From assembly GCF_030683065.1 (NCBI RefSeq), contig NZ_JAUXMX010000047.1, forward strand, positions 1 through 64,000: DNA of 64,000 bases, read 5' to 3'. The DNA is from Pseudomonas sp. Its GTDB lineage: Bacteria > Pseudomonadota > Gammaproteobacteria > Pseudomonadales > Pseudomonadaceae. Of the stretch, positions 13,702 through 19,206 are shown piece by piece. The first letter of the stretch is position 1. Each line of letters opens with the position of its first letter. A program made the translations under genes and the position numbers. Under the pieces are notes generated by a model, which saw only the letters and a program-made list of their open reading frames with translations, was not told where the DNA came from and ran no database searches.

Positions 13702-15846
13702 TTAGTACTCGAGCTTGGCGTAGAGCGTCTTGCGTGACGCCTCGCGTGCCTGCTTGAGCGTGTGAATCCCCCGCTCGGCGAGTAAGGGAATCAGCTTAAG
13801 GAACACCTCACCCGTAACCATCGCATCGCCCAGTGCGGTATGCCGGCCAACTACGTGCACCCCGAGGCGAGCGGCGATCTGCTCCAGTCGATGATCGTCA
13901 GCCGCGTGCCCCGGATGCACCAGAGCCGACAACAGCAGGGTATCGAGTACAGGCTGGATGAAGCGGATGCCGGTCTGCGCCTCCTTGAGTTGCAGGAAGC
14001 GCATGTCGAAGGCGGCATTGTGAGCGACTAGCACCGTATCTTCGGCAAAGCGCTGAAACAACGGCAGCACCTCGCCGATGCTCGGCTGCCCCGCCAGCAT
14101 TTGTCGTGATAGGCCATGCACCTGCTGTGATTCGCGCGGGATTGGCCGGTGCGGGTCAATCAGTTGCTCGAAGCATTCCTGCATCAGCAGCCTACTGTTA
14201 ACGATGCGCGCTGCACCAATCGAGATGATTTCGTCACCCTCAGAAGGCGACAGCCCGGTCGTCTCGGTGTCGAACACGGTATAGGCCAAATCGCTCAACA
14301 GCCGCTCATCGAGCTCCGGGGTTTGCCCCGGCTGGCTGAACAGATCGAAGTCGTAATACACCGGCCGCCCCTGAACCCTGGAAGGGAGCGGCGCCTGTGT
14401 TTGCGGCTGGCTGACCGGCAACTGCAGATACAGACGATTGTCGCCGACAAGCGCACTGGCCTGGCACCAGAGTTCGCCGCCATGCCGCTCCAGCACCTCC
14501 TTGAGCGTGGATGCAGCGGCATCCTCTTCGGCCAGCGGACTGCATGGGCGCTGCTCCCACTCATGCAACTGCTGCGAGTCGAGTGCTGCCCCGCTCCAAC
14601 ACAGGGCCAAGCGCACAAAACGGCCTTCGACGGCCAACTCGAATTGCACCTCACGAATACCCAGTGTGGCCACCATGGCGCCCATCAGTTGGGTCAATGC
14701 CTGCACCAGGGAATAGCTGTCCAAACTCAACCAAAGCGACTCATTGCCGCCCTCATAGCGGGCGACAACCCCAAGCGTGGCGGCAAAGTTACGCTGCAAG
14801 GCAAGCAGCAGGTCGGTCGCCAGCATGTCTTCCAGCGGCCACTGCGGGTGCAGCAGATCGGCATGCTGGCTCAGCGTCTGCTCAAGGTGCCGGGAAAGTC
14901 GCTGCGCTTCGTCACTGATAACCTGGCCAAAGCGTTGACGGCGTTCGGCATCCATCTCCGGGTATTGCTGCACGGTCTCCGCGGCCGCACGGATATTGCC
15001 CAAGGCCGCCCGAGTACCTTCGGTCAGTTGCTGCAACAGTGCATCGCGACGGCTGTTGAGTTCGACCGAGCGGGTGATGTCATCGAGGATCAGGACGAAT
15101 CCGATCAGTTCACCATGCTGATCCAGCACCGGTGCCATCTGCGCCCGCAGCAGATGAGTACCTCGTGCCGTGACGAAATGCGCTATCGGGCTGGTACTTT
15201 CCTGCTGCAGACGCTGCCTGACCCGCTCCAGGGCATGCACGATCAGGCGCTGATCGAGAATGCCGAAGATCGAGCGGCCCAAGCCCACCGGCGCACCGGC
15301 CGGACCAGCAGCATCCGGTTCGAGTAACAGGCTGGCACTGCTGTTATAGAGCAGAATGCGCCCCTCGCGATTACACACCAGCACGCTTTGTTCGAGTTCC
15401 GACATCAGCGCGGCCAGGCGATTCTTTTCCTGCTCGAGACGCGCATTGGCTTCCTCAACGCGCACTGCGACCTCACGCTGCAGTGCGCAATGCGCCTCGG
15501 CAAAGGCATTCAGGGCCGCGCCCAGCCGACGCATGTCGCGGCTACCCGTGAGGGCCACACGGTGCGCGGGATTGACCCGGCGAATGATGTCGATCTCCTC
15601 GCTCAGGCGGATCACCACCTCTGGGTAGGCCGCCAGCCACAGGCGCAGGAGCACGCCGAACGGGAGCAGCAGAAACCCGGAAAGCACCACCAGCAGCGCA
15701 CCACGCCCGGCCATCAAGGCGAGCACGGCGGCACGCTCCTCGCGGCTCAAGTCAGCCCATAACAGGCTACCTGCGAGCGCCAGCAAACTGCCAAGCAACA
15801 GGCTGAGGATGACCAGCCAGAAGGCGAAACGCAGACGTGGACTCAT
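13702..15846 (-). CDS. Membrane PAS/kinase-like protein fused to a DEDDh 3'-5' exonuclease
   Basis: 714 aa. Two transmembrane helices (about 8-31 and 48-70), a HAMP-like/coiled segment, a PAS domain (SVLVCNREGRILLYNSSASLLLE to FVLILDDITRS), then a region laid out like a histidine kinase dimerisation/ATPase domain but without a clear phospho-acceptor His or G boxes. From residue about 520 there is a DnaQ-type exonuclease: FDTETTG (D526), VAHNAAFDMRFL and HTALGDAM supply the DEDDh residues. It ends a four-gene operon, 3 bp after the receiver gene. Sensory control of a nuclease or RNase activity is inference. Confidence 0.85.
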   Translation of the reverse strand: MSPRLRFAFWLVILSLLLGSLLALAGSLLWADLSREERAAVLALMAGRGALLVVLSGFLLLPFGVLLRLWLAAYPEVVIRLSEEIDIIRRVNPAHRVALTGSRDMRRLGAALNAFAEAHCALQREVAVRVEEANARLEQEKNRLAALMSELEQSVLVCNREGRILLYNSSASLLLEPDAAGPAGAPVGLGRSIFGILDQRLIVHALERVRQRLQQESTSPIAHFVTARGTHLLRAQMAPVLDQHGELIGFVLILDDITRSVELNSRRDALLQQLTEGTRAALGNIRAAAETVQQYPEMDAERRQRFGQVISDEAQRLSRHLEQTLSQHADLLHPQWPLEDMLATDLLLALQRNFAATLGVVARYEGGNESLWLSLDSYSLVQALTQLMGAMVATLGIREVQFELAVEGRFVRLALCWSGAALDSQQLHEWEQRPCSPLAEEDAAASTLKEVLERHGGELWCQASALVGDNRLYLQLPVSQPQTQAPLPSRVQGRPVYYDFDLFSQPGQTPELDERLLSDLAYTVFDTETTGLSPSEGDEIISIGAARIVNSRLLMQECFEQLIDPHRPIPRESQQVHGLSRQMLAGQPSIGEVLPLFQRFAEDTVLVAHNAAFDMRFLQLKEAQTGIRFIQPVLDTLLLSALVHPGHAADDHRLEQIAARLGVHVVGRHTALGDAMVTGEVFLKLIPLLAERGIHTLKQAREASRKTLYAKLEY

Positions 15847-15849
15847 GGG

Positions 15850-16221
15850 CTATTCAACCGCCAATTGCGCGCCGATCTGTGCCAGCAATGCCTGGGTCGA
15901 GAACGGCTTGGTGATGTAGGCGTTGGCGCCCAGGGCCAGGCCCTTACTGATCTCGACCTCGCGGCCCTTGGCCGTCAGCATGACGACACGTATATGCTGC
16001 CACTGCGGATTCTCGCGAATCTTCTGGCACACGTCGAAACCGCTCAGGCGTGGCATCATCACATCGAGCAGCACCAGGTCTGGCGGCTTGCGCTGGATGG
16101 CCTCCAGAGCCTCCTGACCGTCGTGCGCGACCATCACCTGGTAGCCGGCCTGTTCAAGCAAAAATTCCAGTGAGATGACGATATTCGGTTCGTCGTCGGC
16201 GATTAATACGGTTTTACTCAT
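15850..16221 (-). CDS. Stand-alone response-regulator receiver
   Basis: 123 aa with only a CheY-like receiver domain: acidic pair DDEP at 9-12, phospho-acceptor D53 (LVLLDVMMP), Thr in VVMLTAKG and Lys in YITKPF. It has no output domain. The true start is [10 protein letters not shown], not the 36-codon extension in the track; its ATGA overlaps the stop of the upstream SLC5-kinase gene by 4 bp, so the two are coupled and are almost certainly partners. Confidence 0.88.
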
Positions 16222-18992
16222 ACTCCATACTCCGTTTCGCGGCCTGCGTCTGACGCGGCCGCATTCGCCTGCCCCAAGGGCAGGGTAAAGGAAAAGGTTG
16301 CACCCTGTCCGCGCACACTCTGGACCCACAGGCGGCCACCGAAGTGCTCGATGATCTGCCGGCTGATTGGCAGTCCCAGGCCCGTGCCTTGCGGCTTCTC
16401 GGTGAGGTTGTCGCCAGCCTGGCGAAACTTCTCGAAGATGGTCTGCTGATCGGCTGGGTCGATCCCGCAGCCGTTATCACGTACATCCACCTGCAATGCT
16501 TCGGGCAGCACCTGCACGGCGATGCCGATGCGCCCCGCCTCGCGGTCGCAGAACTTCACCGCGTTAGAGATCAGGTTGAGCAGTACCTGCAGCAGGCGAT
16601 CGCGGTCGGCCAGTACCGGCGGAATCTGCGCCGGCAGGTCGAGGCGCAGTTCCACACCCTGTTCCTGCAACAGCTGACTGGTGGTGGCCAGGGCATCCTC
16701 GATCACCTCTTGCAGGTCGAGTGCGGCCGCGTGCCATTCGGCACGTCCCGACTCGAGTTTGGCCAGGTCCAGCACTTGGTTGATCATCCGCGTCAGGCGC
16801 TCACTCTCCTTGACGATGATGCCGACGAAACGCGCGCGCTGCGCAGGGTCCAGCTCGGGATTGTCGTGGAGAATCTCGGAGAAGGCGCGGATTGAGGTCA
16901 GCGGTGTGCGCAGTTCATGGGTCACCGTAGAGATGAAGTCATCCTTCAACAGGTCGAGCTCCTGCAGCCGCGCATTGGCCGCGCGCAGTTCGCCGGTGGC
17001 CGCCTCCAGTTCCTGTGACTGCTGCTCCAGGCGGCGACTGTAGGCAATCACCTGTGAGGCTTCGTCCAGAATGCCGAGTACCTCATCCATGCCGAGCGGC
17101 TCCTCCTGCACCACCGAGGCCAGCATCACCCGCGCCGAGGCGTTGCCAATCGCGCCCGCCAGTTGCTGCTCGGCGAAGTGCACCAGGGCAGCATCCGCCA
17201 CCAGCTCGCTACTCGATGCCAGGCCTTGCTGCTGGGCGTAGCCGGCGAATGCCTCGGCGGCCCGTACCGGCCCGAGGAAGCGCCCGACCAGCGCGATCAC
17301 CTCCGTTACCGAGGCACTGCCGCGCCACAAGCTGGAGCTACGCCCAGCGACCTTGAAGGCATCGACGAACAGCAGCGCCTGGGCATGCTCGCGACTGCTC
17401 TGCCGACTGAACAGCGACACGCCGACATAGGCGCCGAGGTTGGCCAACATACTCCAGAACAGCGAATGGCCGATCTCGTCCAGCCCCGCCAGACCGAACA
17501 GCGCCAGCGGCTTGAGCCAGGCGATGGCGAACGGCCCCTGCTCAATGAAACTCAGCGGCAACCAGCCGGACTTGGCGAACGCCGGCAACAGCAGGGTATA
17601 CAGCCACAACAGAAAGCCCAGCGACAGGCCAGCCAGAGCACCGGCGCGAGTGCCCTGCTTCCAGTACATGCCGCCGAGCAGCGCCGGGGCGAACTGCGCC
17701 ACTGCGGCGAACGACACCAGGCCGATCGAGACCAGCGCATAGGCCTCACCTGCCGCGCGGTAATACACATAGCCGAGCAGCATCAACAGCAGAATGGCGC
17801 CACGGCGAATGCCCAGCAGCAGCCCCGACAGATCCGTGCGCTGCGCCAGACCGAGGGCCTTCCAGCGCAGCAGCAGCGGCATCGCCAGGTCGTTGCAGAT
17901 CATCGTCGAGAGCGCAATGGTTTCGACGATGACCATGCCGGTGGCGGCTGACAGCCCGCCGATGAACACCAGCAGCGCCAACGCCTGTTGCTGATGGGCC
18001 ATGGGCAGGGTGAGAACGAAGGTGTCGGCATCCACTGTGCCGGCAGGGAAATGCATCAGGCCGGCGAAGGTGATCGGCAGGACGAAAATATTGATCGCCA
18101 GCAGGTACAGCGGAAACAACCAGATGGCCTTGGCCAGGTGGTTCTCGTTGACGTTCTCGACCACGCTGATCTGGAACTGACGCGGCAGAAACAGAATTGA
18201 CAGCATCGACAGAAAGATCAGCGAAGCCCAGGAGCCATAAGTCCCGGCCGGGCCGCCAAGGGTCAACAACTGGTCAATATCGGGCAAGCGCGCGGCCTGC
18301 TCGAATACGTCGGCGAAGCCATGGTAAAGACCGAAGGTGACATAAAGGCCGACCGCCAGAAAAGCCAGCAGCTTGACCAGCGACTCGAAGGCGATGGCCG
18401 CCACCATGCCTTCGTGGCGCTCGGTAGTGTCGAGGTGGCGGGTGCCAAACAGGATGGTGAAGATCGCCAGCAACAGCGCCACATAGAGCGCGGTGTCCTG
18501 CAGCGGACCGAGCGCCTCGCCCTGGTTTGGCATCTGGATCGCCGGGTACTGCCAGAGGATCAAAAAGCTGCTCGACACCGCCTTGAGCTGCAGGGCGATA
18601 TAGGGAATCACGCCGACCACGGCAATCAGCGTAACCAGGCCGCCGAGCAGCGCACTTTTACCGTAGCGCGCGGCGATGAAGTCGGCGATCGAGGTGATCC
18701 GATTGGCCTTGCTGATGCGGATCATCTTGCGCAGCACCAGCCAGAACAGTGCCGCCATCAGGGTTGGCCCGAGGTAGATCGGCAGAAAGCCAACCCCACT
18801 GGCCGCGGCACGGCCAACGCTGCCGTAAAAGGTCCAGGAGGTGGCGTACACCGCCAGCGACAGGGCATAGATATAAGGATTGGCGATGATCGAGCGGCCG
18901 GCATCGGCCCGTTTATCACCCCAGTAGGCGATCGCGAAGAGGATGCCCAAGTAGGCACAGGAGGTCAGCAGGATCAGGCCACCGAGCGGCAT
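16218..18992 (-). CDS. SLC5 (Na+/solute symporter)-histidine kinase hybrid
   Basis: 924 aa, inner membrane. The N-terminal half has about 13 transmembrane segments of the sodium:solute symporter family ([31 protein letters not shown], the same pattern as CbrA). A STAC-like linker follows, then a kinase core with H-box [11 protein letters not shown] (His692), N-box [19 protein letters not shown] and [12 protein letters not shown]. CrbS/MxtR-type kinases linked to acetate sensing share this architecture, but the solute here is unknown. It starts with GAGGAGG overlapping the stop of the small upstream gene. Confidence 0.88.
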
Positions 18993-19005
18993 GGGCAGCG
19001 CCTCC

Positions 19006-19206
19006 TCATCGGTTCGAGCACTCGACGACCAAGATCATCGCCACGATCAGCAGCGCCCAGATCCCGAACAGATAGGCAAACAGCAGCGGAATACCAAACA
19101 CCTCGCCGCCGCTGTCGAAAAGCGCCAGCAAGGGATAGCTGAACAGCAAGCAGCCCAGCATGAACACAGCCACCAGCCGCTGTGCCCGCAGTGTGCGATT
19201 GGCCAT
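19006..19206 (-). CDS. Small two-helix membrane protein upstream of the SLC5-kinase
   Basis: 66 aa starting MANRTLRAQRLVAVF. Two hydrophobic helices (LVAVFMLGCLLFSYPLLALF and GIPLLFAYLFGIWALLIVAMILVV) are separated by a short loop. Small DUF485/DUF4212-like membrane proteins commonly precede SLC5 transporters (e.g. yjcH before actP), and this gene sits in the same place, 13 bp before the SLC5-kinase. I infer a symporter-associated subunit; the family match is not proven. Confidence 0.7.
   Translation of the reverse strand: MANRTLRAQRLVAVFMLGCLLFSYPLLALFDSGGEVFGIPLLFAYLFGIWALLIVAMILVVECSNR

Follow-up and report, generated by a model that had tools for sequence, protein, structure and literature searches.

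The four-gene operon on the minus strand at 19206-13702 of the window, i.e., of the whole 64,000-nucleotide stretch of Pseudomonas sp. DNA analysed, appears to encode a two-component system whose signal ends in an enzyme and not in gene switching, because none of its products has a DNA-binding output and its exonuclease is intact. The operon joins a transceptor histidine kinase, a lone receiver and a 714-aa protein that is, judged from its sequence, a membrane pseudo-histidine kinase joined to an intact DEDDh exonuclease, predicted to be active. A signalling chain from kinase to receiver to pseudokinase to exonuclease, as suggested by the anatomy of the proteins and the linkage of their genes, is probable, and the whole explanation as an enzyme-output two-component system, including a step in which the exonuclease erases a nucleotide modification, has about an even chance of being correct.

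The genes of the small membrane protein, the kinase, the receiver and the sensor-exonuclease are spaced by 13, -4 (an ATGA overlap) and 3 bp (Table 1), which confirms the coordinates and the tight spacing given in a preliminary description of this DNA. Pfam domains were found in the kinase (HisKA and HATPase_c), the receiver (Response_reg only) and the 714-aa protein (PAS and RNase_T), so that the receiver indeed lacks an output domain, as had been claimed. For the 66-aa small membrane protein, no Pfam or NCBIfam family scored above the cut-off; its gene lies immediately 5' of the kinase gene in most loci surveyed. The arrangement is far beyond chance, since it recurs in dozens of genomes.

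Table 1. Positions of the operon genes, their domains and further genes in the window
Feature	Position	Strand	Basis
Small membrane protein, 66 aa, first gene of the operon	19006..19206	-	
SLC5-STAC-HisKA-HATPase_c transceptor histidine kinase, 924 aa	16218..18992	-	Pfam and 10ed match
Regions of the 924-aa kinase: SLC5 about 1-530, STAC about 555-650, kinase 676-912; phospho-acceptor H691			
Lone receiver, 123 aa, phospho-acceptor D53, without output domain	15850..16221	-	Pfam Response_reg
Sensor-exonuclease, 714 aa, TM - TM - PAS - pseudo-histidine kinase - DEDDh exonuclease	13702..15846	-	
PAS domain, residues 151-261 of the 714-aa protein	15064..15396	-	PAS_4, E 2.9e-7, and structure model
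Pseudo-histidine kinase, DHp-like and CA-like, residues 262-485	14392..15063	-	hhalign and fold match
H-box His position of the pseudokinase, E276	15021-15019	-	
DEDDh 3'-5' exonuclease domain, residues 515-714	13705..14304	-	RNase_T, E 1.1e-33
Protein with C-terminal cNMP-binding domain, 265 aa	12536-13333	+	
CbrA-like SLC5-STAC kinase, 984 aa	43594-46548	+	
CbrB-like receiver-bearing regulator, 473 aa	46583-48004	+	

The transporter part of the kinase matches the solved transceptor chain 10ed over residues 7-474 (E 8e-74), the Pfam SSF model gave no match to it, and the chain contains the LGPxxA motif that is given for the STAC family (PMC4834066). Together with the two kinase domains, these features uphold the SLC5 transporter-kinase of the preliminary description. 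All three domains of an SLC5/STAC histidine kinase lie in one chain, and the phospho-acceptor histidine and the ATP site are intact, with H691, N805/N809, D838 and G868/G870 invariant in 32/32 kinases. The transporter part shares an amino acid identity of 46% with a CrbS-like paralogue and 31% with CbrA, both of the same genome. In CbrA, a lysine occupies the Na2 site and transport is proton-coupled (PMC13022988). This lysine is kept as K206 in 32/32 kinases and the position of the histidine-stacking Phe248 of CbrA is a serine in the operon's kinase, the natural reading of which would be a transceptor of the proton type whose ligand is not histidine. From the gene neighbours, the ligand is most likely acetate or a similar acid. 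Unlike CrbS, its closest paralogue, the 924-aa kinase carries no receiver of its own, and a separate receiver is therefore needed. The window contains a second transceptor kinase, which is CbrA-like and directly followed by the CbrB-like regulator gene. In the genomes of two loci (L021 and L045), an SLC5-STAC with a transporter part 63–67% identical to that of the window's kinase is fused to GGDEF-EAL and not to a kinase (L201:8376-11579 and L202:5108-8332), which gives this kind of sensor a cyclic-di-GMP output, and the L045 genome also carries the normal operon.

The preliminary description had presented the 714-aa product as a membrane PAS protein with a DEDDh exonuclease as output. The PAS and RNase_T domains are indeed present; what it overlooked is a complete, though catalytically inactive, histidine-kinase core at residues 262-485. 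This core aligns with that of the operon's own kinase across both DHp and CA (hhalign probability 99.1%, E 1.6e-18). None of 132 relatives has the phospho-acceptor histidine, at whose position Glu or Asp mostly stands. The two N-box Asn residues have likewise disappeared, giving way mostly to Tyr/Phe and Arg/Lys, and the G1 Asp has become Trp in 131, so the histidine, N-box Asn and G1 Asp of an active histidine kinase are all missing. Amid the lost catalytic residues, the tryptophans W372, W417 and W430 are near-invariant, suggesting selection for a role that is not catalytic, and the core is a plausible receiver-docking site. The predicted structure of the 714-aa protein has a mean pLDDT of 77.7 and a pTM of 0.37, at which the domain folds are usable and their relative arrangement is not. 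Its fold matches are headed by whole sensor kinases (WalK, 472 columns, E 1.5e-21), followed by PolC/DnaQ exonucleases, and include a NifL-NifA structure.

The exonuclease domain has the motifs DTETTG, HNAAFD and HTALGD, it matches PDB 2p1j (E 3e-31), and its residues D526, E528, D614, H669 and D674 are invariant in 132/132 relatives, in keeping with the earlier proposal of a signal path that lacks a DNA-binding output and ends in a DEDDh exonuclease. By solved structures and by profiles, the domain is closest to the proofreading exonucleases of the PolC/DnaQ type and to DinG, rather than to RNase T or oligoribonuclease. A role in anti-phage defence was rejected, as PADLOC matches the exonuclease by DEDDh-domain models only and the gene context is metabolic; a phage origin was likewise rejected, with PHROGs matching only DNA-polymerase exonuclease families. 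In a tree of DEDDh domains, which has several long branches and was used only for its broad split, the pseudokinase-fused nucleases stand apart from the stand-alone DUF294-linked ones, which form two sets, and a close kinship between the fused and stand-alone enzymes was not seen. Shortened exonucleases of 465–476 aa, found after DUF294-hyp162 at two loci (L185:7494-8891 and L187:5997-7427), nest in the pseudokinase-exonuclease clade and have no receiver.

The receiver tracks the exonuclease and not only the kinase, and no other link within the operon is as stable as the adjacency of these two genes. The receiver adjoins the sensor-exonuclease in 76/83 assessable loci of the close-relative survey and in 36/44 of an independent, evenly drawn sample; the frequent separation of the exonuclease gene from kinase and receiver, which the preliminary description had held to be damaging to its proposal, was thus not observed. 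The two genes lie a median of 3 bp apart (n=113 loci), and they stay adjacent in four loci with the order receiver, exonuclease, small protein and kinase, as well as in eight loci with no kinase nearby. The receiver itself is well conserved, D53, K105 and T/S83 each being present in 75/75.

The first survey took in the window together with four plasmid loci and the 80 best-matching loci from genomes. It found the order small protein, kinase, receiver and exonuclease among Gammaproteobacteria and Betaproteobacteria, in Paracoccus and in a few assemblies labelled Chloroflexi, with the kinase present in 67/76. A second sample was drawn evenly to lessen the bias toward near relatives. It held the sensor-exonuclease (E <= 1e-60) in 11/274 genomes of the class and 36/299 of the phylum, and its 33 loci with full flanks contained the receiver in 27, DUF294 in 24, the kinase and an SSS symporter in 21 each, and acs in 13. 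Many loci of the phylum-wide sample have the alternative order, with receiver and exonuclease ahead of small protein and kinase. Gene order therefore differs between groups while membership is kept, which points to function and not to mere descent as a block. Kinase-free loci were considered as counter-evidence, and most of those checked turned out either to be additional copies in their genome or to lie in a genome that encodes the kinase at another site. In each of the four Accumulibacter genomes with an orphan copy that were tested, a complete operon accompanied by DUF294 is present as well, two other genomes (G068 and G199) have a second, complete copy besides the orphan one, and two with a Marivivens-like locus arrangement (G498 and G537, Rhodobacterales) encode a full-length kinase elsewhere. 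One genome (G522) gave only a longer CrbS-like kinase match, and G530 and G410 (74% completeness) have the sensor-exonuclease with no strong or full kinase match in the genome.

Genes near the operon encode acetyl-CoA synthetase, ActP-type symporters and, more often than either of these, a DUF294 nucleotidyltransferase. DUF294, acs or ActP lies nearby in 46/51 full-flank receiver-bearing loci, which supports the statement in the preliminary description that exonuclease genes recur next to SLC5 transporters of the acetate type. The exceptions, with none of the three near the operon, are the window, its three nearest relatives and one further locus (L091), where weaker matches occur further out. 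The genome of the window has three DUF294 genes elsewhere, each with an exonuclease partner and beside a BCCT or ActP transporter. In addition to the nucleotidyltransferase domain, most of the DUF294 proteins contain CBS domains and many contain cNMP domains, and the catalytic signature GSxGRxEQ...DxD is intact in 30/34. A DEDDh gene lies immediately downstream of 22/29 sampled DUF294 genes and within two genes after 25/28 assessable ones (the 22 immediate cases, two one gene further and one behind the receiver, with one gene near a contig end left out). The exonucleases in these pairs come from more than one DEDDh lineage, and such repeated pairing with different lineages suggests opposed chemistry. 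It is reported that DUF294_C groups with the substrate-binding domains of GlnD and GlnE (PMC3710099). By chemical inference, hydrolysis of a protein-linked NMP and the trimming of a nucleotide from a 3' end would cleave one and the same type of phosphodiester. When the operon is compared with a writer/eraser cycle of protein nucleotidylation like that of GlnE/GlnD, the DUF294 linkage and the intact signature are found in relatives, and no DUF294 gene lies beside the window's operon.

The 265-aa protein gene convergent with the operon encodes a C-terminal cNMP-binding domain after about 140 residues with no Pfam match; it was rejected as the missing DUF294 partner, as it has neither CBS nor nucleotidyltransferase domains, and a gene of this kind occurs at the same place only in two relatives, Pseudomonas sp. 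MMS21 TM103 and P. sagittaria. The genome of another locus (L104, C6:6000-25900) has two DUF294-DEDDh pairs, each by a BCCT-type transporter, that look like a duplicated transporter/nucleotidyltransferase/exonuclease unit. A family of 162–173 aa with no Pfam match, here called hyp162 (L105:3288-3794, L011:7784-8272, L150:11422-11943), recurs by ActP or between DUF294 and the receiver or exonuclease.

In the proposed mechanism, acetate or another short monocarboxylate bound in the SLC5-STAC transceptor would set the activity of the histidine kinase, which would phosphorylate the lone receiver. The receiver may then dock on the pseudo-histidine-kinase core, by analogy with DivK on the pseudokinase DivL, and the docked receiver and the PAS domain would together switch the attached exonuclease on or off, either sign of control being conceivable. 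The exonuclease would strip a terminal nucleotide, its likeliest target being a nucleotidylated substrate made by the GlnE/GlnD-like DUF294 that is usually adjacent, and the two enzymes may act as writer and eraser on a step of acetate or pyruvate uptake or activation. That the exonuclease opposes the DUF294 nucleotidyltransferase is a tentative and, taken by itself, rather doubtful step. The same caution applies to the view that a two-component system here controls a post-translational nucleotidylation cycle, on a protein or another target, and so tunes short-monocarboxylate uptake or activation without transcription. Genomic pointers to an enzyme that antagonises the DUF294 nucleotidyltransferase are at least as strong as those to the turnover of a nucleic acid or signalling nucleotide, which the preliminary description had suggested.

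Two other substrates of the exonuclease deserve weighing. It may be an RNase acting in mRNA turnover, as the DEDDh nucleases include RNases and the domain is intact throughout; the authors of the study on the P. putida exonuclease PP_0353, to whom its mechanism was unclear, have themselves speculated on mRNA decay (PMC9927547). However, the kinship with proofreading exonucleases and DinG rather than RNase T or oligoribonuclease counts against this role, and a generic RNase leaves the DUF294 linkage unexplained, which makes mRNA turnover unlikely. Cleavage of a linear dinucleotide or a similar molecule, lowering a second messenger in carbon signalling, is suggested by the CBS and cNMP domains of the neighbouring DUF294 proteins and by the GGDEF-EAL fusions, from which it follows that an SLC5-STAC sensor can drive nucleotide signalling. 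This reading is very unlikely, however, as the exonuclease domain is PolC/DnaQ-like and not Orn-like and no DEDDh enzyme is known to open a cyclic nucleotide.

The link between receiver and exonuclease may also be questioned. Lone receivers often have several partners, and sensor-exonucleases without an adjoining receiver exist in the second copies of Accumulibacter and at five other loci, so that the receiver might be a phosphate sink or act elsewhere, with the sensor-exonuclease answering only its PAS domain. However, the adjacency of receiver and exonuclease outlasts the loss of the neighbouring kinase and the retained pseudo-DHp core is a natural surface for receiver docking; a receiver acting elsewhere is therefore improbable, and signalling through the docked receiver is the preferred reading. 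The outputs of two-component systems are mostly DNA-binding or cyclic-dinucleotide enzymes. If true, a pseudokinase-tethered exonuclease as the end point of such a system would represent a new output class, and the operon offers a testable handle on the recurrent, unexplained acetate gene set of acs, ActP, DUF294 and exonuclease. No description of an operon of kinase, receiver, pseudokinase and exonuclease was found in the open-access literature.

Among known systems, CrbS/CrbR (MxtR/ErdR) controls acs, actP and a CBS-domain/exonuclease pair (PMC9927547, PMC5715377), and both it and the operon use an SLC5-STAC histidine kinase. However, CrbS is a hybrid kinase and CrbR a DNA-binding regulator of the LuxR type, in contrast to the non-hybrid kinase, receiver-only partner and exonuclease output found here, which set the operon outside that system. 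CbrA of CbrA/CbrB, whose genes also lie in the window (Table 1), is likewise an SLC5-STAC kinase with a lysine in the Na2 site, and 10ed, the best match among solved structures, is of its transceptor type, but it is 31% identical to the operon's kinase, differs at Phe248 and acts with CbrB, a DNA-binding regulator of the NtrC type. DivL is described as a pseudo-histidine kinase in a response-regulator circuit (PMC9430884). DivK-DivL and NifL resemble the 714-aa protein in using a histidine-kinase-like core without kinase chemistry as a docking module, but their output controls another regulator, whereas the operon's pseudokinase carries a covalently attached exonuclease.

The nearest studied relative is the P. 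putida pair PP_0354 (CBS-domain protein) and PP_0353 (exonuclease), which form one operon under MxtR/ErdR (PMC9927547). Deletion of PP_0353 slows growth on pyruvate and deletion of PP_0354 does not, neither matters on acetate, and the PP_0354 deletion gave no phenotype on the carbon sources tested; normal pyruvate growth requires ActP-I as well as PP_0353 (PMC9927547). A CrbS/R target in P. fluorescens, Pflu5625, is a protein with cAMP-binding, CBS and nucleotidyltransferase domains and a predicted role in nucleotidylation (PMC5715377). The P. putida pair and the present operon have in common an RNase_T-family exonuclease with an operon partner, control by an SLC5-STAC kinase system and a link to ActP and to growth on pyruvate. 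For PP_0353, however, the only description given is that of an RNase_T-family exonuclease. The nuclease studied here differs in being attached to a membrane pseudokinase and in having a kinase and a receiver of its own, and it belongs to none of the sampled lineages of stand-alone DUF294-linked DEDDh exonucleases.
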